This document shows positions 29,401 through 60,832 of a stretch of DNA of 64,000 bases, piece by piece. The stretch comes from Paralvinella palmiformis (Eukaryota; Annelida; Polychaeta; Terebellida; Alvinellidae). The DNA lies in NCBI GenBank assembly GCA_025642065.1, contig JAODUP010000046.1, positions 587,501 through 651,500 on the forward strand, written 5' to 3'. Positions within the stretch are counted from its first letter, which is position 1; the number at the start of each line of letters is the position of its first letter. Under the pieces are notes generated by a model. The model was not told the DNA's origin. It searched no databases and worked only from the letters and a program-made list of their open reading frames with translations. Made by a program: the position numbers and the translations under genes.

Positions 29401-32400
29401 AGATCACTACCACCCATGTTCGAATCCTGTTCTAAGACCAGTCATAAAATTGGATGATTAACATATGGCATATTTAGCATAGACATAACCATCATATTCT
29501 AAGTGGTGATGTAATTACCATCCCATTGGGAATATTACTACAGTAAGAGAGACCAACATAAAATATTATTTTACATTCATGTTTGTAATATATAAATATA
29601 CTACTTCTGATATAATGATAATTCACAACTGATTCTAAGCAAAACAGATCAAAGGCGAAAGTTAGAAAAAAAATCACAAAATTTAGTGAACAGAGGTTTA
29701 TGACAGTTCATGATGGCATAAAGGTATTTACGAAGGGTTTATGACACTGTCATAAACAGGTTTATGACTGTCATAAACCCAACCCTGCTGACTATTGCAT
29801 ATTTTTACTTTGACATCTATCTTGTTGCTAAATTTCCTTGCTCCTGTAATAATCTTTATGTGTGAACCGTTGCTCTTTCATAGCCACTTGTGTGTATATG
29901 GTTGACTAAATGGCCCAAGATGAAACACCCTTCGGACACGCCCAGGCCAGACTTTGAACCCAGATGGTAGAGGTACATGTTTGTGGCCAACTAAACTACC
30001 ATTTTGTCAATAGAGGCCCCCTAATCTTTAAATATAAAAACCAGTCAAATATCTAAATCCTGTTTCTTACTTCAGCAGACTATCAAAATTCGAGCGCAAA
30101 TTTTCTTATTCCAGAAATTCAACAGTTACCGGATTTGGTGAACAGTTTCTAATGAGTGTTCTAAAAGCAGATCATCCGACACATTATGCTTGGGTCAGTT
30201 TATAATAATAATTAACATGTACTCGAACGTGGACCATCTGATAATACTGTGAGTCGTGATGGCTCAGTGACGAAGGTGGTCAACCAGGAAAGTGGAAGGT
30301 CCCCGGTCTGAATCCATCAAAACACCACTCGATCACTTTTCATAAGCTCACTGGTTGTTGAGTCGTTTTAACCTCGGCCCTGATCAGATCTGGAATCTAT
30401 AGATGAGAGACAACTGCCAGAGGAAACTTATTCTTCAAACCCAGACTCGAAACGATCAGTAGTTGTTGACTCAATGATATGACATGAGCAGTTGATGTTA
30501 GACGCTGATGGATTACTGTGGATTATGGACCTGTAATGGATAGCTGGAAACAAAATACCTGTATGGTGACGATGACTGTATAGGGCCATTATTACTGGGC
30601 GGGGGAGGAGGGGTGGGTGAAATCAAATAAAACTGTAAATATTGTTGTTTTACGGCCACTTTTGTCCACATGGTAGGACAAATGGGCCGAGTGACCCCCA
30701 AAAGTAATGAAGCAAAGTCAAAGATGAAACACCCTTCAGATATGCCTACGCCGAGATTCAAACTTGGGTGGTAGTGATCTATGATCCAACACACTACTGT
30801 TAGACCATGGAGGCGCCCCGTGCCCGCCATTTAAAGGCAATGATGTGAAGAGAAAGATGAAACATCCTTTTGACATTTCTTGGCTGGGATTTGAACTCAG
30901 GTGCTACAGATCAGTGACAGTTGAAATAAAGTAAAACGCTTAGATTTAACCAGGGGATGTCAAAACCTCGTAATAGCACACCTTGTTTTCAATTATAAAC
31001 CTCTAAGTAACTAAGAAAACACTGTCATAGCAGGACAGTGACACTTTATCTATATTATTGACAACTTTAAAATAACATTTGTGTAGCTCGTCATCATGTA
31101 GCATATCCTTATTAGCTCATCCTAACGCATCTTATCATCAGGTATCTCGTAATCATCATTGTAGCTCACCATCAGCTCACTGAAGGCCATGTTGTCATCA
31201 GCAAGTACCTGACCACTGCCACCTTCTCCACAGTGTATCCATGTTCACACACACACACACACACACAGAGAGTCTTAATACCCAGCACCAAGACCATCAG
31301 ATATAAAAGGAAATCGACAAGCTTCAGTAGATCATAGTATACTCTCAAGACCATGGACTTAATGTACTGTGCTGATCTATTTTAATATGGTATTCTATAT
31401 TGTTGTATATGTCGCTGTTCTCACTCTGAGCACATCACAAGAGTCCTTTCTCATAGATGTTCACTTCGCTGACAACACATTATAGACTATCCATATTCCA
31501 TACATTGTTCAAACAGAAAATAGTCATTCGGCACTGGAATGAGTTGAGTTGTTTAGCCTCAGCACTGGTCAAACCTAAGACATACGGCTGGGGGGCGACC
31601 ACCTTGGGAAACAAATCCCACAAAAACAGAATTGAACCCACAAATGGAATATTACAGGGCAGTCGTCTTACCCACTGTGCCATTGGAACACAGCGATTTT
31701 GTATATTGGATTACATATTGAGGTTGACAGCCCAATCATTGGACAAAGAAAAAACAAATGTTCTTTCTAAAATTTATTTCTGATAAACCCTTCTCTTGTC
31801 AAAACAATCATTTCGGAATTAGACGGGTCTACTCTCAGTTTGTTTATTCGACTAAGTTTAATTATTTCATAATTAATGCCAACTGAGATAGTCAATTGTG
31901 TCAGGCCAATCAATTCAGGATAGTCATCGTAAAATGGTTGAAGAGCTACAGGATTTCCTAATATGTAAAGCTATGAGGTGGTAATATAATAATAATCTTA
32001 TTCCATTATCCTATGCCTCTATATATGCACAGCCACATTCATCTATTCAAGCAAAACATTCTGCCAATCTTACAAGATGACCCCATTCTTAAGAAAAGCA
32101 TGGATCAATTCAGTGGATATCTCGCAGTGTTTGCTCTAAGCCTGTCAAGATTAAATACAATGAACCTCGTGGAAAATATGACAAGAGTTCACACTGCACG
32201 CTCCAGCGACCATTATGATACTTTAACTACACCCGCTTCTCATAATACAAAGGTCTAGTCGGCGATAGTACTAGAAGCTACCTGCAATATCAACCAAAAA
32301 TAGTTACCTTTTGTAAGCCATAAACCAGTCTGATCTCCTCGACAAACTCTGGTCTAGCCTGACACTCAGGATAGCCCTTGGGTATTGAAAATCAATCAAT

Positions 32401-36510: not shown

Positions 36511-36692
36511 GGCGCCTTCGTGGTCTACCGGTAGTGTGGTGGATCACAACTCACTACCACCTGTGTTCGAATCTCAACTTGGGCATATCTGAAATTTGTT
36601 TCATCTTTGAATTCTCTTCATTACCTCTGGAGGTCGCTCGGCCCATTTAGCCTACAATGTGCACAAAGGTAGCCGTTAAACATCAATCATCA
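36511..36692 (+). mobile_element. SINE family B, near full length, nested in the hAT element
   Basis: The head is 'ggcgccttcgtggtctaccggtag', box B is 'tgttcgaatctcaac', and the body and tail ('ggcccatttagcctacaatgtgcac', 'ttaaacatcaatcatcac') are all present. Confidence 0.9.
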
Positions 36693-48077: not shown

Positions 48078-48249
48078 GGGTGCCTCTGTGATCTTGGTAG
48101 CGCGCTGGATTACAGACCACTACCACCCGTGTTCGAATCTCGGCGTGCGCATATCTGAAGGTTGTTTCATCTTTGACTTCGCTTCAATACCTTAGGAGGT
48201 CGCTCGGCCCATTTAGCCTACCAGTGCACAAAAGCGACCGTAAAACTTA
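48078..48249 (+). mobile_element. SINE family B, near full length
   Basis: Box B 'gtgttcgaatctcgg' is followed by 'gcgcatatctgaaggttgtttcatctttgacttcgcttc' in pieces, then the 'cggcccatttagcctaccagtgcac' block and the A-rich tail. The box A region is eroded. Confidence 0.85.
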
Positions 48250-48267
48250 AATAATAATATCGTATAT

Positions 48268-48330: not shown

Positions 48331-49544
48331 CATTATATTATAATCATCTTCTGGCCCTTGTCTACATACGTACTTCTAAAATGGATGATGTTGTTTTGTC
48401 CTATGCCCGTGGATTGACATTTTGACATGCTTCAAAATGTCAGCTTGTTAATTATTGCAATGGCTTTAATAAAGGTTTTTTTTTTTATGCTTCATTACAG
48501 AATCCCTGACTCATGATCTATTATTGGGTAAAATACCTGAACCTAACAAATTAAGGGAAGTCATACTAGAAGCATGACATATTTTAATTCATCAAACTAA
48601 CAATGTATTGTATCATTTTATACATCGTCCTGTACTCAATATTAGTGTGTATAACTTATAAACATGGGCCACAATGTTACGTCATTGCGGAAATCAACCA
48701 GAAAATTAATAAATTTCCATTTAAGACATATTGTCAGTTATTATCAACTAAAACAAATTCTAAAAAACAACTTATTTGTCGTACTGCTCAGTTTAAAAGA
48801 AAAATCTACTTTCCCTAGTAAAATACACGTATCAATTTATATGCAATGGAAGGTGGGCGACATTAAGCATCGACATTAATTTGACCAGATACTATCTTAT
48901 ACACTAAATGTTTATGGGGAAGCTATACCAAGACAAATACATAAAATACGACAATTATTATAACTGATTTTGATTCATTTTTATTAAGTGTTCGGGAAAG
49001 TGTGCACGTGATGTGATATACGAGTAGGAGAATTCTCAAGTTATTATCTGATAAGACCTTATTGATATCTTGTTGGTGTCTTATTTATAAACAAAATTGT
49101 CTTATTAAAATTTTCTTCGATTTTATAGAACATGTGTTGTACTTTATGGGCCACGAATAAACACATTATTATAAGTGCACAGAATATTGCAGGTTGTTTC
49201 AACTCTATACGTTGAAGAACGCCAAATAATACAGATAGGGCTCTCTGAAATCTCCCTTCTGGATCAGAATACTTATCAACTTCAATAAAGTCACAGATAT
49301 CAACAATCAACATCATTGAAAATTGTACCTAAACAAATATTCTTTGTTCAGGACTCACCTGCGTTTTCTTTGATCTTTCTAACAATAGATCCGACAATGT
49401 ATTTACTAACACTAACAGTCTACGTTGATATTTTATCGCAGGCTGACAAACAAATGACAGGCACAGACTTTGACTAGTTCGATATCGGGTAGCATAGATG
49501 ACATATCAGACTGAAATCCAAGACTAATTCCTACACTAATACAT

Positions 49545-49682
49545 CAAATGTCGGTTGAACATCAAATGTCGGTTGAACATCAAATGTCGGTTGAACATCA
49601 AATGTCGGTTGAACATCAAATGTCGGTTGAACATCAAATGTCGGTTGAACATCAAATGTCGGTTGAACATCAAATGTCGGTG
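49545..49682. repeat. 18-bp minisatellite, about 7.5 units
   Basis: Perfect tandem units of 'atgtcggttgaacatcaa' are present. Because 18 is a multiple of three both strands stay open, giving repeating MSVEHQ on plus and MFNRHL on minus. I see no reason to call a protein. Confidence 0.95.
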
Positions 49683-49973: not shown

Positions 49974-50402
49974 ATGTCTGCCAACAAAACTGGCATAGCA
50001 AAATAAATTCGGATTTCGGATAGCAGCCCTGACTCGGTCAAACTGGAGACAAAAAGGCACAAAATATACAAAACTCTTGAGTTTGAGGATAAAACTTCTG
50101 GCAGATTATTAGAATCGGTTATCATTGGTGTCGACACCGTGGATGACTCCGTGATCCTTAGCAATTCGTCGGATTCAACATCGAGATTTCCGAACACTGC
50201 TGAAGGTAAGCTTGATCACTTGATTCAAATAGTTACAATTGTACGAACCAAGATAAAGGCAAACGGCGAAGAACTTAAAACTCTCTCAAACAAACTGGAT
50301 AGAAAGTTAATTGTGGTAAATAGTCGACTGAGCGATCTTGAAGCTGAAACCAGAGAGGTTAAATATATAGAGGCGTTACTCTTGCCGCGCTATGTTGAAT
50401 TT
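49974..50402 (+). pseudogene. LINE ORF1, N-terminal coiled-coil part
   Basis: The frame starts 'MSANKTGIAK', has one in-frame TAA at 50004-50006 and then stays open for about 130 codons. After a Ser-rich stretch ('ILSNSSDSTSRF') comes a heptad-like region with 'KANGEELKTLSNKLDRKL' and 'SRLSDLEAETREVK', typical of the trimerising coiled coil of L1-type ORF1 proteins. It breaks off at 50402 where the inverted-end insertion begins. Confidence 0.6.
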
Positions 50403-51229
50403 TGAACCAGTGGCGCCTCCAGCGACCGGAGGTATTTCTCAGATAAAAAAGCTCTCTGGTTGTCCACATGTGATCGTGTACATGAGTGCGCATGGTTGAA
50501 ATGAATTGCCAATACTAGTACTATATGTTACATGATCACATACTCTTTTAGTAATTAACACTTTAATTGTGCACACATGATATCGAAGGAAACAAAGCTC
50601 TAAAACTCTTAATAAATAATTAAGTGATTTCACAGCCCAGTCACTTAATTAATTCATAGCCTACAATTTGCGATCACTTGACAGCTGATCAGAAAATAAT
50701 TTAACGTGGTTTAGGTTATTTCACAGCTTTGTGTGTGGAAGGCGTAATTTTCACAAGTTTTTTTTAATGAAAACAATTAGGTATATATGAGGTAAATGCA
50801 TACAAACATAGTTTCATCATGTCAGTTTATCATAATCCATAACTTTTTATTTATTTGGATATATACAAATAATGATATATACAGCTATTATAACGCTCCC
50901 ATAACATAATTCACCATATATTCATCACGTCCGTTTATCATATATTAACTAAAAAAATTATAAGTTCATTTAAAGTCTAAACCTTAATAATATAGATCAT
51001 GCAATATATCAGCCTGCACAGCTGAGAACAAAGAATATACATGGAATATTAACAAAGATTATACATGGAATATTAGTAATGTTTATGTTTGCATTCATAC
51101 AATAAGCGGCATCAACTCTCTTGTGTCACGGGTTCATCTATAGTTACAATCAGTCATTTGTTATCAAATGGACAGAATAACCCAAATTGCTTCCAGCTCT
51201 AAACAACCACTACTACAAAAATATGACAT

Positions 51230-51385
51230 TTAGTCCAGATCAGTGAACTGTTTAAAGTTAGACAGAATATACCCAGAGATGTAATAGACACATGCATTGA
51301 CTACTGTAACAGATAACACCAGTAAATCTGTAACCAAGAGGTTGGCCTGTTTACATGGTATCTCATCATCGTAGAACTTCAAGGA
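51230..51385 (-). pseudogene. Possible C-terminal exon of a P-type (THAP9-like) transposase
   Basis: A strong acceptor 'attattctgtttcag' precedes 51 codons and a stop. The peptide starts 'SLKFYDDEIPCKQ' and contains 'VVNACVYYISGYILSNFK', similar in pattern to the 'YIAGYIxRKxK' block near the C terminus of P-type transposases; the following Cys pair is missing. The alternative reading is the last exon of a membrane protein, because residues 15-40 are hydrophobic. The location inside the inverted-end insertion favours the transposase. Confidence 0.4.
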
Positions 51386-52355
51386 CTGAAACAGAATAAT
51401 ACCTTGTAAAATAATGACTTGAACCAAGTGCATACACAATATGTAAACACATGTTTTCCTTTTTTCAAGTTGGTTAAAGAATTTGATTTGATATGCATTT
51501 AAGTTATGAAGAGAAATATACCAATTAAAGCACATGAGATGAACATTCAAGTACTAATTTAGGTGCTGGTAATCCTTTTTTGTATTAATTAATTAAGATA
51601 TGAAATGGGCTGACAAAATTTCATGTGTTTGATGCCTTGTTTCTTATTTAATTAATTTTATAATACCAATTTTCACAATTAATATTTATAAATATTAATT
51701 ACCATCACAGCTGGCCCTGTCTCCTGTATAGGTCTCCTATATGTTAATACCTTCCTCTTTGATTTCAGCGGATGAATGCGGTGGATTTGATACATCAAAA
51801 ATAGTTAGAATAGCAGTTTAGATAAGTTGTCTGGTTCATGAATTCCGTTTCAGTGAAATACATTCTACATTTAGTATTCAAGTAATTTAAATCTTTCCTC
51901 ATCATATATCTGCCCAACAACAATTAATAACCCATCTTTTACTTCTGTCAATAGAAAAAATAACAAAATGAATGTTTCTACCACTAGTTGAGATATTTAA
52001 TAATTAATTTCATAACATTTAAATTATATAGAAGTCCATATATATATATATATATATCAATAAGTACCAATTGCTTACATTTAAAAATAAATATGGATGC
52101 AGGTAATCATGTAAATACTCAGCTACTTATAATTATTGTAATTAGGGAAAAATTTAGTCTGAAACAAATATAGATCTAGATAGATCCTGCTTGGGCCTAC
52201 TGAATGGGTCATGTCAAATAGGGGCGTGTCTACTTCAAATTGTTATGCTTATTTTTTAAATATCATTTATTAAGTTTATTTTTTTTAAAGCCAGATCATA
52301 TAAACATTTTACACTAGAATTGATTTCCTTTCGAGAATGTCTTTATTTGTGCATA

Positions 52356-52412
52356 CTTTTTCTGTTACTGCAGCCGAAAGCGGCGCAGAATGAACCAGTG
52401 TCATTAGGCGCC
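52356..52412 (-). pseudogene. THAP zinc-finger start, exon-like fragment
   Basis: ATG at 52412 on the minus strand opens 'MAPNDTGSFCAAFGCSNRK', followed by a possible donor 'AAAAA|gtatgc'. The C-x4-C spacing and 'GCxNR' are typical of THAP domains, whose second half is normally in the next exon; that half is not found here. Confidence 0.5.
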
Positions 52413-52529
52413 ATGTTAACGAAGGGAGCTGTCCGTGACAATCTACCTCCGGTCGCTAGGGCCCTGGCGCTCCATGAATTCAAAATGGCGTCCCATGTTA
52501 AAATGTCTTGTTATAAATAGTCTTTGCTG

Positions 52530-52830
52530 AAACATCGGATCTGAAACTTGCATTGGACCAAATGTCGTACACCCGATGCAAACAGGAGATCTCGAAACGG
52601 TTGAATGTAAATCCAGGATCCAGATTGTAAATGTTCCTGAAAATAAGTCCGAATATATAAAAAGTGTGATTTTAGCCATCTTTGTAGAAATAGGGATAGA
52701 TTCGGTCAATGATAGAACTATTGTAGACATTTACAGGATGGGTCGCTTCATAACAGGAAAAATACGTCCCATTATGGCAAAATGTCACCACCCGATGGGT
52801 AGAGAGCAAGCATGGAAACACTGACAGTCA
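52530..52830 (+). pseudogene. LINE ORF1, RNA-binding (Transposase_22-like) segment
   Basis: A coiled-coil remainder in one frame ('AETSDLKLALDQMSYTR') passes by frameshift into the frame at 52576, reading 'KSRIQIVNVPENKSEYIKSV', 'IFVEIGIDSVNDRTIVDIYR', 'MGR' and 'KIRPIMAKCHHPMGREQAW'. The blocks 'NVPEN', 'HRMGR'-equivalent and 'RPIxAK' are characteristic of the RRM/CTD part of L1-type ORF1 proteins, which bind the element's RNA. Confidence 0.7.
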
Positions 52831-53500
52831 TCGGGCGAGTCCTGATCATTTCCGTCAACAATACACGGAGGATATACAACAACGGAGAAGGGTTCCACAG
52901 GCCATCGTAAATTACGCAAGAAACAACGACGATTTCGAAGGGAATACATACCTGAGGAATGATAGAATTGTTGTAAAAGGCAAAACGTACAGCCTGGATA
53001 CCCTGCACGGTCTACTCAGTGCTCTACAAACTCCAGTTGGATGTACTACTAATGATGAACATGTATATTTTTATGGCACCCAAAGTCCATTCTCTAATCT
53101 AAGATGGCGGTTGACCATACTCCATTCAAATGTGTTGAGCAAGCATATTTTTACGTGAAATCATTTCACTACAAAAACTACACGAAGGGCTCGCAAACCC
53201 GGGTAAAATAAAGAAACTTGGTGGCTCCTTCGGTAAGACACATTGGGATAGTTCAGGGGCCAGCGACAGAATCGTGGATGATACTGTATTTAAGAAATTC
53301 GCGAAAATCGCTATCTCACCTCTGTTCTGCCGTCGACAGGCGCAAAAACACTGGTAGAAGCTAACCCGTATGATTCCTACTGGGACGCATTGTCCAGTGC
53401 AACTCATGCCATAGAAAACAACAATAAATGGACCGGGATCAACGCCCTTGGTGATATCCTGATGCGAGTTCGAGAGAAGCAGCGCCTCGTGCTTTCAGAC
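52830..53500 (+). pseudogene. NADAR domain (YbiA-like) fused to LINE ORF1
   Basis: The linker 'NNDDFEGNTYLRNDRIVVKG' leads into 'FYGTQSPFSNL' (53069-53101), the conserved NADAR opening. Then come, in shifted frames, 'FKCVEQAYFYVKSFHYKN' (E of V-E-Q at 53137), 'HEGLANPGKIKKLGGSFGK' (53181-53237), 'DRIVDDTVFKKFAK', 'STGAKTLVEANPYDSYW' (53331-53383) and 'NKWTGINALGDILMRVREK' (53423-53479). Order and spacing fit the whole domain of about 150 residues. Known family members cleave N-glycosidic bonds, in riboflavin intermediates and in ADP-ribosylated guanine. At least three frameshifts inactivate this copy. Confidence 0.85.
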
Positions 53501-53559
53501 AATTCTTACTATGGACACAATTGTTATACTTATGCCACCAGATGTCACTATTGTATTAT

Positions 53560-54410
53560 CCATCTATGTATTATATAATGATTTATTTTGGCCTCCAAGC
53601 TACTAAATAATAATAACTAAATCTATTACTGAAAAAAACGGTTTTTTGTATTGAAATAAAATAAGATTGTGTTGTGTATCAAGTTAATTGTGATGTGTTT
53701 GGATAATTGGCCTGTTTGTAGTAGTTTACAAATTGGTTAGTGATAAGTGTTATCAATGTCATTTATGAAATGTGTATGTAATTGACATGTGATAGTTGTA
53801 GACTATGCTGATTTATTAAATGTGTAAATAATGTGACTTCTGATAGGCGTATACCATGCTGATTTATTATTTAAAATAGGTGTAGACTATGCTGATTTAC
53901 GATAGGGATGACTATGTGATATCAGATAGTGTAGACTATGTGATTTATGATAGATATGGACTCCGTGAATTGGTGATTGGTATTGACAATCATACTAATG
54001 CTATGTGTAATAATTAGCCAATAATGAGACAATTTGACCATAATTACACCCGGATAATTAGTATAAAAAATTAAACTAATGATCGGAGTAAACTATTAGA
54101 CTGATAAACTACAATTATGATGTGTGTGAACTATTATTGTGATAATAATGAATATAGGTATAATCAATTAGACTATATTAAATAAAGAAATAATTGAACT
54201 GATGATATGTGTAAACAATTAGATTGGTGACATTTTCCAACAATTAGTTATAAATATACAGGTGCAATTAGATTAGGTGGAACTATTTAGACCAATTAAT
54301 ATATTTTACCCTAAGTAGCCATTGTTCTCTTATGTTTTCATAATGTCTCTGACATTGTTTTAACTTATTATCTCCACACAAACTCTCTACCAGTATCATG
54401 TTAGGTGTTG
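53560..54410. other. ORF1-ORF2 spacer with diverged repeats
   Basis: The spacer is AT-rich and non-coding. Between about 53780 and 53970 imperfect units of 'gtgtagactatgctgatttatgata' recur at 35-60 bp intervals. No splice or promoter signal is convincing. Confidence 0.5.
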
Positions 54411-54589
54411 TTTGGATAGGAAAATCATGGTACACTATAATACCATAATATTCAAATCCATGTTGATCCTATATGGTGATAGGATTAATTATCATCATGA
54501 TATGTTTGTCCTTGTTGCTTGGTTACGTTTTGTTGTGAAGGTGTTGTTCGACATTGGTCGGATCGTGTCGGGGTGGCGATGTTCAGGGA

Positions 54590-55521
54590 TGATGGTTAAT
54601 AGTACACTAGACCAGATCAGAACCGAGAATAATTGCAATTTGAAATATCTCTTCGACGATAGCAGTGATTACCATGATTCCCGATTACAATATAATAATG
54701 ATTATAGTTATTTAGAACCTGATCAGTTTGCCAATCACGCGGAGAACTTAAATAGACAGTCTTACTTTCACTTTAATTGTCGAGGATTATCCTCAAACTG
54801 GGAATCATTTCGTGATCTACTTTGTGATCATTTCTCTTTTGACGTCGTAGGCATAAATGAGGTATTCGGTTGTGACAATGATAAGCGTATATATTTACCG
54901 GGATATCAGAACATATTTACACGTAGTCGTGATGACGGCAATCGAGGCGCGGTGGCTTTGTTTATCAAAGATAATATTCAATTTAAGATAGGTGAGGATA
55001 TCAGAGTCTTCATTCCGCAAATATTTGAGTCATCGTTTATAGAAATCGATACATCCAAAGGTGGTAAGGCAATAGTAGGCGTAATATACAAACCTAATAC
55101 TGCTCCCAGAGCAGACTTATTTACATCTACAATACGGGACATAATTAACATAATAAATACAGAAGGTAAACATGGGATAATACTGGATGATATGAACATA
55201 GATCTACTAAAATATGATACTTATACTAAAACAAATGATTGTTTGGAGTCTATGTTTTCAATCGGTTTCTCACCTGTCATTACATTACCTACAAGATTAG
55301 CATCCAGTTCGGCAACTCTGATAGACCATATAGACCCTAACAGAACGCTATCAACTAATTCGGGAATTGTAAATACTGACGTAGCAGATAATTTTGGTGT
55401 CTTCCATATAACCAAAAGTCTGAATCTACTGTTATTAAACAAGCGAGATTGTTTTTACAAAATAACTGCGAAAGGCTTAGTACCTATTTATAAAAACTTA
55501 ATTTTGATCCTCGCCTACACA
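54590..55521 (+). pseudogene. LINE ORF2, APE-type endonuclease
   Basis: The open frame 54412-55521 carries from Met at 54589 an N-terminal leader ('STLDQIRTENNCNLKYL'), then 'FHFNCRGLSSNWESFRDLL' (N of the first APE block), 'FDVVGINEVF' (catalytic E block), 'RGAVALFIKDNIQFKI', 'VGVIYKPNTAPRADLF', 'ILDDMNIDLLKYD' (normally G-D-x-N; here the Gly is Asp) and 'TLIDHI' (normally followed by a catalytic block with Asp/His). It is unbroken for about 310 codons, the best preserved part of the element. It would nick target DNA for target-primed reverse transcription. Confidence 0.85.
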
Positions 55522-55859
55522 TAAAATGTCTCAATGAAGCATATCATATCTTCACTCAATTATATTTGAACGCAATATTAAAAGTAATAAAAAAATTATT
55601 AAAAAAGAACCATTGACGACTACCGGTTTATTAACTTCATCGAGAACTAAGGCAACGTTTCCAATGAAAAAACTAAATAAACCAACCGAACACCAAATAA
55701 GTCAGTAGAGAATATCTAACAACAAGTTTAACCAAATCAAACGGTCAATGAAAATACAATATTACAATACACTACTTGAAAAAAAACCTCGATAAATCCA
55801 GTCTTCAGAAAGAATTTAAAACAGATAACAACTCTGAAACTGACAAATCGATAGCAAAT

Positions 55860-56870
55860 AATTTTCAACGAATATTTCGCAAATATCGGACCAAAAACAA
55901 GCCAGAATATGCCCATATCTAAGAGTATGTTTCTCGATCCAGTCGATATGTTCAAGGTCGTAGTAACAACTAATAAATTGAAGATCAAGACTAGTTCCGG
56001 ATATGATGAAATATCTACAAAGTTACTGAAAGAAACTATACATAATATAAGCATACCGCTAACCCAAATTATAAACCAATCTTTACAAATTCCGATCGCT
56101 AAAGTTGTCCCGGTGTATAAAGCATCTGATCCCTCTTTATTAACAAACTATCGTCTCATAAGTGTTCTTATTTCATTTTCGAAACTACTAGAAAAACTGA
56201 TGTATGACAAGGTGATTAAATTTCTTACAATAAACAATATATTCTACGAACACCAGTATGGGTTCCGACCTAAATATTCTACAATTCATGCCATCATCCA
56301 CCTACTCAATAAGTGTGCAGAATCAAATAACAAAAGGAAGAAAGAACTAACTCTAGCCGTTCTTTTGAGATCTTTCCAATGCATTCTATTTTATTAGTCA
56401 TAAAATAATCCTCCGAAAGTTAAATAATTATGGTGTACGAGGTATAATAAACACGTTGTTTCAGAATTACCTCATGGATAGAACTCAAAATGTGGAAATT
56501 GAAGGAAGTGGACCAACCTCACGCCAAATGCAATGTGGCGTTCCACAAGGTCCTCTGTTCTATTTAGTTTATATAAATGACATATCCAAATCCAGTAACA
56601 GCCATATCCTATCTTTTGCTGACGATACAATGATTATGTTACTGATTCTGACATATTGTATAAGAAAGTTGACACAGAAGTGAATAATCTTTTCAATTGG
56701 TTTTGTGTGAATAAATTGTCACTAAATTCTGAAGAAAACAATATTGTTATTAACCACATATGAAACAATTAAATTTGAATAGCATAAACTCAAAATTAAT
56801 GGCACACCTCTATCTAGAGTAGGGCATAATTTAAAGAAACAGCCATCAAATTCCTAGGCATATTCAGACA
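55860..56870 (+). pseudogene. LINE ORF2, reverse transcriptase palm/fingers
   Basis: Open segments read 'KIKTSSGYDEISTKLLKETI', 'AKVVPVYKASDPSLLTNYR' with 'PIS' changed to 'LIS', 'HQYGFRPKYSTIHAIIHLL', then after a frameshift 'GVRGIINTLFQNYLMDRTQN', 'CGVPQGP' and 'SFADDTMIM' (catalytic x-ADD at 56615-56626), and 'WFCVNKLSLNS'. The order is canonical for Jockey/CR1-group RTs. The lost D of the first catalytic block ('LAVLLRSFQ' in place of 'DLSKAF') and several stops make it inactive. Confidence 0.85.
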
Positions 56871-56887
56871 TGAAAATAAATATGGAA

Positions 56888-58300
56888 TATATTTTGTATC
56901 AGTTGCATTATTTTGTGAAACATCATATTAGGACTAGTTGGTTAGTGTTTATGATCTGTTCAGTGGTATCAGCGTAATCATTGATACGTGACGAGTATTT
57001 TGGCGTACGTTTTCAACAGTGGCAGTGATTTGAGTGAGTGGGTGACCAATAAAACACCCAATTCCAAGTGGCATATACTAGCATAAAATAAGGAGGTAGA
57101 TATATCTATTGTATCAGATATGCCAAGTCCGACCCTTTTGTGACATTTTATGGTCACTAGTTGATCTAGTGAATCTGATGATCCGTCAGGTTACTGCAGG
57201 AATGTATCAACGAGTTCAAGCATGACGTACAGTTGGGCACGAGTATTTTGGCGTACGTTTTCAACAAGTGGCAGTGTTTTGAGTGAGTGGGTGACCAATA
57301 AAACACCCAATGTCCAAGAGGCTCTATAAATAAGGAGGTAGATATATCTATATATCTAGATATACCAAGTCCGCAAACACCCTTTATGCTGAGTGGTTAT
57401 GGTTCACTAATACCCCTGTATCCAGAATGCTAGTGAATCTGCGATTGATCCGTGCAGGTTACTTCGCCAGGAGACCTTTGAAGAAACGTTTATTGTTGCA
57501 AAGACATCGACAGGCGCGTATGGATTGGGCTAGAAACAATCTCCGCTGGCCACCATGGATTCCTGCTTTACCGGATAGATGGTCTTATCCGGGTCCGCAG
57601 ACAGCAACATGAGACCTATAATGAAGATTGCATCGTACCTAGAGTCCAAGCAGGGGGGGGGGGTGAAGTTACCATATGGGTTGCTTTCCACCAAGGTTGA
57701 AAATGTGACCTTCATATCGTCGATGGAAACCTGGATCAGTATCAGTACCTACAGTTTCTGGAGGAAATGTTATTGCCATTTGCTCGTCAGACATTTGGGC
57801 ATAATGTTGTGTCCCAGGATGACAACGCCAGGCCTCACAGAGCTCGCACGGTGGTCAATTGCATGGAAACTGAAGAGATTGAACACATGGAATGGCCAGC
57901 AGTGTCTGCGGATATGATTTCTATAGAGAACTTGTGATCCAACCAGCCTACTAATCTGGCTGAATTGCGACAGGCAGTCATTGATGCATGGTAAGCTCTA
58001 CCTCTTCAAACCCTGGCAACCCTGATTGACAGCATGCCTGTGATTAGTGTGCCTCATTGAACACTCTAGATAATTAGATTGTTTGAAGTCGATTTCCTGA
58101 CAAATTCCTTTATATATTTAGCATTTTGGCAATAATAATCATAGTTCATTATATTCACCATGATCCTGAATACCCATAGTCTGTGAAATGCATGAATATA
58201 TTCCTCATAGGATAATTATATCGATAAATTAATAAAATTCACATATTCTGATACTTTCGCTGGAAAAAGATAGTTCTAAATAAGAAATAACAAACAATAA
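56888..58300 (+). mobile_element. Tc1/mariner (DD34E) transposon inserted in LINE ORF2
   Basis: The insertion separates the LINE 'FLGI' block (about 56860) from 'DKFLT/LKN' and following RT-thumb blocks (from about 58310). It contains Tc1-type transposase remnants at 57427-58060. A tandem duplication of its 5' region is present: 56985-57190 and 57230-57440 share 'acgagtattttggcgtacgtttt' and 'gagtgagtgggtgaccaat'. Terminal repeats and a TA duplication could not be defined by eye. Confidence 0.65.
57427..58060 (+). pseudogene. Tc1-type transposase fragment
   Basis: The frames read 'RAGYFARRPLKKRLLLQRHR' and 'QARMDWARNNLRW' (end of the DNA-binding region), 'YNEDCIVPRVQAGGGG' after a shift, 'VVSQDDNARPHRARTVV' (second catalytic D at 57821-57823) and 'DMISIENL' (E at 57926-57928). 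Exactly 34 residues separate the D and E, the DD34E signature of Tc1. A poly-G run at 57653-57663 marks one frameshift. The first catalytic Asp region is not intact. Confidence 0.8.
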
Positions 58301-58950
58301 AATTACATTCCATATATATTTTCAAGTCTGTACATTGACAAATTTCTTACCTGAAAAATACATTTAACAAACGTAAATTAAAAAATTTCAAGCGCAATCT
58401 ATTCCATTAAACAATTAAAAAATGTTTTCCCCTGTAACAATCTAAGAACCTTATATTTTGCACCCGCATATTTCGTATGGAATTTTAGCATGGGGCAATT
58501 AAGGCTTCACCAAAAATACTTTAAAAAAACTGAAATACTTCAAAAGCGTGCAGTTCATACGATAAATAAAAAAGCATATAACAGTCACACTGAACCTCTC
58601 TATGAATATTCTAAAATTCTAAAAATAACAGATCTGTACGAATACCAAGTAAACCTTTTATGTATGATTTCCACCATAAATTACTGCCAATTATATCACT
58701 CCATCTTTAAATACAATCACGAAAACCAAAGTTGTCCAAAAACGACAGTCGCATCTATTTCACATAGAAAGATGTCACATTCGCATTCTCATCAAACTTA
58801 CCATTATATACATTCCCTATAATATCTAACAAGTATTCAAAATATGTAAGAAATACCATTAGTTCTCTTTATAAGAAAAAAATAAAGAACCATTTCATTA
58901 AGAAGTATACTAGTACAATAAAATGCATTGTACAGATCTATCTATATCTA
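58300..58950 (+). pseudogene. LINE ORF2, thumb and C terminus
   Basis: After the Tc1 insertion the LINE resumes. 'IPLNN' and 'MFSPVTI' frames lead to 'HISYGILAWGN'-like DNA (about 58470), then an open frame with 'LQKRAVHTINKKAYNSHTEP', 'YEYSKILKITDLYEYQVN' and 'YHSIFKYNHENQ' up to 58822. These match the fragment at 45120-45290 of the same family. The 3' end is AT-rich with no clear tail. Confidence 0.8.
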
Positions 58951-60551: not shown

Positions 60552-60647
60552 CACATTGGAACATCTTCCATTCCCAGTAATAGGTCAATACAAATTCCTG
60601 AGTATTATTCAATGAACACGACACACTATTATGCCTCGTTAGAAAAT

Positions 60648-60832
60648 GTTGTTGCTGTTTTACAGCCACTTTTGTGCGAACGATAGATTAAATGTGTCGA
60701 GCGACCTCCTAAGGTAATGAAGCGAAGTGAAAGATGAAACACCCTTCCCACACAGCCATGGCTGAATTTGAACCGAGCTACTAGAGGTATGTGGCCAACC
60801 ACACTGCCATCTAGGCAATGGAGACGTCCCTC
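60648..60832 (-). mobile_element. SINE family B, near full length
   Basis: The minus orientation starts with 'agggacgtctccattgcctag' at its head. The body keeps 'aagatgaaacaccctt' and 'ggttcaaattc' in the box B position, and it ends with the 'ggctgtaaaacagcaac' tail at 60648-60666. Confidence 0.8.

Follow-up and report, generated by a model that had tools for sequence, protein, structure and literature searches.

What is a NADAR domain doing between RNA-binding and endonuclease blocks in an annelid genome, and does it belong to a retrotransposon? The window, which is the whole stretch of 64,000 nucleotides that we analyzed, is from contig JAODUP010000046.1 of Paralvinella palmiformis. An earlier note, made from the letters alone, had read a coiled coil, RNA-binding blocks, a NADAR domain, an endonuclease (EN), and a reverse transcriptase (RT) as one non-LTR retrotransposon (LINE) whose ORF1 carries NADAR. 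It had also proposed that the NADAR domain has a counter-defense role.

A decayed LINE with two later insertions

We found all of these blocks on the plus strand, in this order and close to where the earlier note had placed them. They form one decayed LINE, which runs from 50007 to at least 58927 and is broken up by two younger insertions (Table 1). Position 58927 is the minimum 3' extent of the element, where the sister stretch that we compared ends. We are nearly certain of the overall anatomy, which is a two-ORF non-LTR retrotransposon with NADAR fused C-terminally to ORF1.

Table 1. Parts of the element, and insertions into it, with positions in the window.
Feature	Position	Strand	Evidence
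ORF1, N-terminal part (coiled-coil region)	50007..50350	+	Open frame 50007-50405; 50077-50350 is 87% identical to C1740 (L036)
Insertion inside ORF1, not element DNA	50351..52525		Missing from sister copy C1740 (L036)
L1 ORF1p-type RRM-like block of ORF1	52526..52824	+	Aligned with intact relatives; DNA 83% identical in L036
Decayed CTD-like C-terminal block of ORF1, with the beginning of NADAR	52754..53158	+	Alignment to relatives
NADAR, C-terminal part	53294..53575	+	PF08719, E = 1.7e-13, profile 103-161 of 163
ORF2, APE-type endonuclease	54601..55521	+	45% identical to L020 EN (54601-55419); collinear in L042
ORF2, reverse transcriptase, in two frames	55855..56703	+	PF00078 in both; last part from comparison with sister-family ORF2
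Insertion in ORF2	about 56867..58330		Missing from sister copy C2131 (L042), which sets the borders
ORF2, C-terminal end	58331..58927	+	72% identical to L042, where it adjoins the RT

The NADAR domain that had been called from motifs was found by Pfam as well: the match in the window scores 51.6 bits, which is above the curated cut-off for PF08719 (35.1 bits), and a profile search of the genome recovered it with E = 1.2e-10. For the coiled-coil and RRM blocks of the window taken alone, Pfam gave no reliable score; we assigned these blocks by alignment to relatives. The EN frame of the window had no Pfam match at E = 0.1, while the EN of L020, which represents a sister family, matches PF03372 (E = 2.5e-05). 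The RT has two matches to RVT_1 (PF00078), at 55855-56394 (E = 1e-07) and at 56369-56680 (E = 7.3e-10), and is 52% identical to the RT of L020 and 57% identical to that of L039.

Because the RRM block and the CTD/NADAR start are in different frames, the window copy must be frame-shifted, and with the RRM and NADAR parts in separate frames and interrupting stops, we consider it to be dead. The catalytic segment of NADAR is not readable in this copy. The insertion in ORF1 is bounded by an 8-bp direct repeat, GCTGAAAC (50343-50350 and 52526-52533); in C1740, the N-terminal part of ORF1 directly adjoins the RRM part. The insertion in ORF2 holds a fragment of a Tc1-type transposase (PF01498, E = 4.1e-9, 57334-57609).

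Intact relatives of ORF1-NADAR

Intact ORF1-NADAR relatives are known as proteins, without their flanking DNA. For instance, P0001 has ORF1 and NADAR in one chain of 419 amino acids (127.1 bits for PF08719). Both modules are present in 71 of the 120 relatives that we examined, ORF1 precedes NADAR in 71/71, and 50 are near complete. We also scanned viral contigs for relatives with genomic context and found none. The claim of a LINE with a C-terminal NADAR on ORF1 thus holds, as the unit recurs in several copies (see below) and is a single chain in the intact relatives.

A 50-row profile of intact relatives of P0001 matched structures of LINE-1 ORF1p (2YKO/2YKP, E = 4.9e-13; 2LDY, E = 2.7e-09), coiled-coil chains, and NADAR structures (8BAU, E = 3.1e-36; 2B3W, E = 1.6e-24). 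Judging from these similarities, ORF1 is of type II (L1 ORF1p-like), with a predicted coiled coil, RRM, and CTD; for the window copy, this assignment is by alignment to relatives. The Pfam model Transposase_22, which the earlier note had suggested, matches just 1 of the 50 members.

In the alignment of intact relatives, the catalytic glutamate is present in 49/49 filled rows and a lysine seven residues on is present in 45/49. Both are kept across proteins with as little as 28% identity to P0001. Given the seven-residue spacing and the alignment to 8BAU, we equate the two residues with E88 and K95 in the E. coli C7 NADAR. As described in PMC11543638, K95 is needed in that protein, and E88Q inactivates it, while E88A has little effect. 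Among copies, dN/dS of NADAR is below 1 in 12 of 15 pairs and above 1 in the other three (the pairs are not independent). On sequence grounds, NADAR is quite likely to be catalytically active in living relatives.

Possible role of the NADAR domain

The NADARs described here resemble those of bacteria and oomycetes (DarT1-linked antitoxins and YbiA) in their profile family and in the Glu-Lys spacing (PMC11543638, PMC11125620). They differ in being fused to an L1-type RNA-binding protein.

Taking the evidence together, we lean slightly towards the explanation that ORF1p-NADAR strips ADP-ribose from guanines in the element's nucleic acid and so counters modification by the host. By analogy with L1 ORF1p, ORF1p would coat the element RNA in cis. 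A host ADP-ribosyltransferase would modify guanine bases in this RNA or in the single-stranded target-primed cDNA, and NADAR would hydrolyze ADP-ribose off those guanines, its putative substrate. Reverse transcription and second-strand synthesis could then go on, which would be the presumed counter-defense. As for the individual step, that NADAR acts on nucleic-acid ADP-ribosylation is a serious possibility that falls a little short of probable. PMC11125620 describes NADARs that cleave guanine-ADPr in vitro and yet give cells poor protection, so activity need not mean counter-defense.

It is possible, but we doubt, that the NADAR of ORF1p works instead on small molecules or RNA ends, such as free ADP-ribose derivatives, NAD-derived RNA caps, or repair products. 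Soluble ADPr derivatives or by-products of RNA processing have been proposed as targets of viral NADARs, and NADARs are stated to act on riboflavin intermediates (PMC9503650); that source proposes macromolecular targets mainly for the NADARs of eukaryotic RNA viruses. However, all of the NADARs tested in PMC11125620 cleave guanine-ADPr, and the RNA-binding fusion partner would make a bound nucleic acid the more natural substrate.

Alternatively, the element might retain NADAR purely for binding or structure, as a reader of ADP-ribose or as an additional contact with RNA, with no catalysis. We consider this unlikely given the conservation of the glutamate and the lysine in such diverse proteins, although glutamate occupies position 413, within the final conserved block, in only 21/47 filled rows. 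This position is the candidate equivalent of a charged residue that is conserved in the last strand of the YbiA family, as described in PMC11125620.

If the nucleic-acid explanation is right, it would be a sign that retroelements are restricted by an ADP-ribosylation system of the host. The physiological role of eukaryotic NADARs, including those of animals, is called unclear in PMC11125620. A NADAR that retains its catalytic residues within a selfish element's RNA-binding protein would have a concrete and testable role: shielding the element's RNA or cDNA from ADP-ribosylation.

Copies elsewhere in the genome

Two other copies are collinear with the window. C1740 (L036) is collinear across ORF1-NADAR, and the 3.1 kb past the shared part contains neither an EN match nor an RT match. 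C2131 (L042) is collinear from NADAR through the gap, EN, and RT to the end of ORF2, at 72-79% DNA identity, and itself lacks 55661-56514. Other copies are collinear with each other: C870 with C1902 (5.3 kb, from ORF1-NADAR to RT), C932 with C2593 (4.4 kb, also from ORF1-NADAR to RT), C394 with C2078 (over ORF1-NADAR and RT), and C89 with both C2138 and C2292 (from NADAR into EN). Among the copies that we read, we saw none with intact ORF1-NADAR and ORF2 together. By eye, no target-site duplications were recognized at the ends of C870, C1902, C932, C2593, or the window copy. In C870, the copy has an AT-rich repeat after its 3' end.

Across the genome, 22 EN-NADAR pairs lie within 6 kb. In 20 of them, NADAR shares the strand of EN and precedes it; in the other 2, it follows EN on that strand, and in none is it on the opposite strand. 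Similarly, among the best 17 NADAR loci by score, 11 are followed by EN or RT on their own strand and 0/17 have either on the opposite strand. (The first count rises to 12/17 if C2078 is included; its RT had served as a query.) In the control strand-segments for this test, EN or RT was present in 0/22 and 2/24. The family is dispersed and multi-copy, with 118 EN rows at 109 places and 98 RT rows at 92 places.

The earlier note had considered a fixed host locus for NADAR. The genome has at least 150 places with NADAR above the cut-off (150 of 364 candidates were scored, and LINE, Penelope-like, and host-like NADARs are pooled), which rules out a single host locus; the host-like NADAR genes are at C1470 and C2403 and belong to another lineage. 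Despite these host-like genes and the many related EN copies without a listed NADAR (see below), it is extremely improbable that NADAR, as a host gene or as part of an unrelated element, lies next to a LINE by chance, and we reject this because of the collinear copies at independent places and the bias in strand and order, with the intact single-chain proteins also against it.

NADAR is limited to subfamilies of the EN/RT group. For 89 of the 109 EN copies and 85 of the 92 RT copies, the 6 kb upstream contain no listed NADAR on the strand of the copy, which rules out that NADAR is obligatory for the whole RT group. The EN copies with no listed NADAR include C962, C1711, C2045, C2314, and C2051; some copies of this kind are relatively intact, such as C962, with a frame of 832 amino acids without stops. 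The expectation that copies of the EN-RT element would carry NADAR is borne out for close copies and not for distant ones: among the copies that keep the start of EN, NADAR is on 5/7 close and 5/34 distant copies.

Association with several types of reverse transcriptase

From its motifs, we tentatively place the window RT in the Jockey superfamily. The RT of L020, which is a sister of the window RT and not the window RT itself, scores 51 bits against L1 ORF2p and 40 bits against R2; the RT fragment of C2078 scores 76 and 18 bits, respectively. These motifs and the weaker match of the sister RT to L1 ORF2p make the window RT look unlike L1/Tx1. In the same genome, the NADAR element of C394 and C2078 has an RT of the L1/Tx1 type, and ORF1-NADAR was found together with three RT types. 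Also, the nearest kin of the window NADAR differ from those of the window RT; the RT tree gives the window no firm place, and in the first NADAR tree many deep forks are weak (46/117 inner branches are open). The three RT types and the discordant nearest kin suggest that the ORF1-NADAR module may have been exchanged between ORF2 types.

NADAR in a LINE ORF1 is already in print for the oyster Crassostrea gigas, whose Tx1 LINEs have it in ORF1; PMC12477816 also describes Gypsy elements of the brown alga Ectocarpus with NADAR in Pol. Our element shares with both a YbiA-family NADAR within a retroelement protein, and with the oyster elements its place in a LINE ORF1. It differs from oyster Tx1, which we compared by description only, in that the window RT looks unlike L1/Tx1. 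LINEs of the CR1/L2 lineage are similar in having an ORF1 with coiled coil, RRM, and CTD, an APE-RT ORF2, and ORF1 modules that are swapped between lineages, but the extra ORF1 domains that the available text of PMC4120745 names for them (PHD, esterase, zinc knuckle, and zinc finger) do not include NADAR.

We speculate, while thinking it rather unlikely, that retroelements took up NADAR repeatedly as an anti-restriction enzyme, in two lineages that would both erase the guanine ADP-ribosylation that a host transferase would place on retroelement nucleic acid. If so, nucleic-acid ADP-ribosylation would be revealed as a genome defense in invertebrates. In this scenario, and just as tentatively, one lineage would be fused to ORF1p and have moved between three or more types of LINE ORF2, and the other would be carried by a Penelope-like element, in its first ORF. 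A separate NADAR lineage does adjoin an RT in the same genome that we presume, from its motifs, to be Penelope-like; a GIY-YIG domain in the tail of this RT, likewise presumed from motifs, was not found by Pfam. The apparent exchange of ORF1-NADAR among ORF2 types, together with this second lineage, suggests recurrent selection instead of a single accident.

NADAR is carried by the ORF1 protein

P0001, an intact protein of 419 aa, has an open frame with the NADAR domain at its end and is 75% identical to the ORF1 of the related locus L007. With P0001 as the seed, we aligned 50 relatives. The first part of the resulting profile matches structures of LINE-1 ORF1p (E = 4.9e-13) and the last part matches the NADAR structures 8BAU and 2B3W; Pfam's NADAR is present in 49 of the 50 members. 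Among the best 120 of 128 relatives, 71 contain both modules, and 50 of these are near-complete two-module proteins. NADAR alone was found in 39 and the ORF1 module alone in 10, several of which are fragment-like. The earlier note had placed NADAR in the ORF1 of a LINE, and the relatives bear this out: all 71 two-module proteins have both modules in one chain, with ORF1 first.

A glutamate is conserved in all 49 filled rows of the alignment, and a lysine seven residues later in 45 of the 49. Because of this spacing, and the alignment to 8BAU, we take them as the putative counterparts of residues E88 and K95 in the C7 enzyme from E. coli (PMC11543638). Of 15 within-family pairs, 12 gave a NADAR dN/dS below 1 and 3 a value above 1; some copies are common to several pairs, and the majority of copies are decayed.

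Some ORF1-NADAR relatives (P0057, P0062, and P0074) are on contigs of 4.1–5.7 Mb and others share as little as 28% identity. The family therefore probably occurs in several animal genomes.

ORF1-NADAR and ORF2 form one unit

ORF1-NADAR and ORF2 are one unit, rather than chance neighbors: independent copies keep the order at the DNA level. Contigs C870 and C1902 have 5.3 kb in common, from ORF1-NADAR to the reverse transcriptase (RT), as do C932 and C2593 (4.4 kb). C394 and C2078 share DNA over ORF1-NADAR and RT; in C89, C2138, and C2292, the common DNA extends from NADAR into the endonuclease (EN); and C89/C2305 and C1552/C2005 share NADAR and part of the downstream sequence.

At the 17 top-scoring NADAR loci, where 1.5–5.9 kb of downstream sequence was examined, EN or RT lies 3' of NADAR on the same strand in 11 cases (12 if we count C2078, whose own RT was a query and was excluded for itself) and on the opposite strand in none. 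Among control strand-segments, EN or RT was present in 0/22 from the window and 2/24 from host-NADAR loci. Of the five loci without EN or RT, four (C2416, C2005, C2082, and C2305) match the ORF1-NADAR DNA of a copy that has one, and the fifth (C1740) is a sister of the window copy. Genome-wide, among the matches listed, there are 22 EN-NADAR pairs within 6 kb: NADAR is upstream on the same strand in 20 (gaps of at most 2.1 kb), downstream on the same strand in 2, and on the opposite strand in none. The corresponding numbers for the 12 RT-NADAR pairs among the matches listed are 7, 3, and 2.

NADAR marks some LINE subfamilies

NADAR is a mark of certain LINE subfamilies and is not universal. 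Among the matches listed, 20/109 EN copies and 7/92 RT copies have a NADAR at most 6 kb upstream in the same orientation; 5'-truncation, which is frequent in LINEs, bears on these counts. Some NADARs may be missed because the matches are the best 150 of 364 and the best 150 of 330 candidates for NADAR, the best 112 of 2,421 for EN, and the best 93 of 14,615 for RT. The earlier note would have abandoned the fusion if intact EN-RT copies lacked NADAR. Among listed matches that retain the start of EN, this does not hold for close copies (at least 65% identity to L020, from a sister family), as 5/7 have NADAR, but it does hold for most distant ones (5/34 have NADAR). Among the matches listed, C962 is one of some NADAR-less copies that are nevertheless fairly intact.

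The copy in the window

The window copy is dead. Pfam matches only the C-terminal portion of its NADAR and two pieces of RT, and its EN was detected by comparison with the sister EN. Window 50077–50350 and 52526–54166 match the sister copy L036 (on C1740) at 87% and 83% identity. Because these blocks adjoin in L036, the sequence between them is a later insertion. Another sister copy, L042 (on C2131), aligns to 53336–55660, 56515–56866, and 58331–58927 at 72–79% identity. RT and the end of ORF2 are directly joined in L042, which implies a second insertion in the window; the counterpart of 55661–56514 is missing from L042 itself. The span claimed earlier, 49974–58950, agrees with the element including its insertions, with 58927 being where the compared stretch of L042 stops and not necessarily the 3' border.

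Two kinds of repeats were also seen. One plus frame of the 18-bp tandem repeat gives a repeated peptide. The ~180 bp repeat is MITE-like, and is palindromic, as it matches both strands at one place.

Locations of insertions, repeats, and NADAR genes
Feature	Location	Remarks
Later insertion	window 50351–52525	flanked by an 8-bp direct repeat; missing from L036
Second insertion	window ~56867–58330	contains a Tc1-type fragment; absent in L042
18-bp tandem repeat ACATCAAATGTCGGTTGA	window 49541–49666	seven perfect copies; immediately upstream of the element
~180 bp repeat	window 30641–30822, 36511–36692, 48083–48263, 60644–60826; L007 417–595, 2438–2625	dispersed over many loci
Penelope-like NADAR copies	L009 4643–8934, L010, L012, L013, L014, L027, L028	on C888, C2321, C2185, C1440, C49, C324
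Host-like NADAR gene clusters	C1470:527154–536649, 363252–364808 (L023–L025); C2403 (L021, L022)	

Possible exchange of modules among LINEs

In the NADAR tree, the window and C1740 cluster with C932, C2593, C2416, C2082, and C1884 (support 98/94). The nearest RT relatives of the window are in C1552 (57%) and C89 (52%). These different nearest kin suggest, from sequence comparison, that modules may have been exchanged between LINEs; exchange of ORF1 among LINE lineages is already known (PMC4120745).

We tested groups that were chosen after the identities were known, with rows from broken copies and a window NADAR row of 61 residues. Placing the NADARs of the window and C1740 with the C1552/C2005 family was rejected (p-AU = 0.005), also with the C89 family added (p-AU = 0.002), as was placing the window's RT with C932/C2593 (p-AU = 0.009). 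The RT clade of the window, C1552, C89, and L018up is absent from the best tree and was not rejected (p-AU = 0.33); the RT tree does not fix the window's position.

A third type of RT lies 3' of ORF1-NADAR in C394 (L002 and L031) and C2078 (L006 and L032). It is of L1/Tx1 type and nearer to L1 ORF2p (76 bits over a fragment, versus 51 for L020). These elements are of the kind reported from oyster, and coexist in this genome with the window's other type of RT.

Previous reports and possible role

NADAR in retroelements is already known: PMC12477816 describes it in the Pol of Ectocarpus Gypsy elements and in ORF1 of several Tx1 families of Crassostrea gigas (from Repbase), and proposes a role in processing RNA intermediates. 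A limited search of open-access literature, which covers neither subscription journals nor Repbase reports, yielded this one paper on NADAR in retroelements and no mention of the domain in Penelope-like elements or in LINEs other than Tx1. The word NADAR is absent from the main text of a paper on gastropod non-LTR elements (PMC11203168) and of the Alvinella genome paper (PMC12403961).

NADARs strip ADP-ribose from guanine and serve as antitoxins (PMC11543638 and PMC11125620). An RNA-binding ORF1p could carry such an enzyme to the element's RNA and single-stranded cDNA. Shellfish possess guanine-ADP-ribosylating enzymes that are related to pierisin. The natural opponent of the element's NADAR might be a similar host enzyme.

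A putative Penelope-like element with NADAR

NADAR also lies in a 662-aa ORF whose 3' neighbor, an overlapping ORF, encodes a reverse transcriptase (RVT_1). Judging by motifs, we take this RT to be of Penelope-like type with a GIY-YIG-like tail, and the first ORF to contain an SGNH-type hydrolase besides NADAR; Pfam gave no confirmation of the GIY-YIG tail. Among 52 listed relatives of the first ORF, 49 have NADAR, 5 have a precomputed GDSL-type Pfam domain, and 5 have an L1-type ORF1 module and hence are of the LINE kind.

Penelope-like RT sequence is on the same strand, 3' of the NADAR ORF, at 9 of 10 loci (L009–L016, L027, and L028). L011 and L016 have just its first 53 and 37 residues, adjoining the ORF, and in L015 the sequence passes into N. 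C888 has two copies, head to tail.

In a small tree, the NADARs of Penelope-like elements cluster with host-like NADAR genes (L021 and L023), separate from the NADARs of LINEs (99/98). Perhaps the host-like genes are domesticated element genes, or else the source of the Penelope-like element's domain. Some of them have two NADAR domains, and by eye, their second part is SGNH-like.
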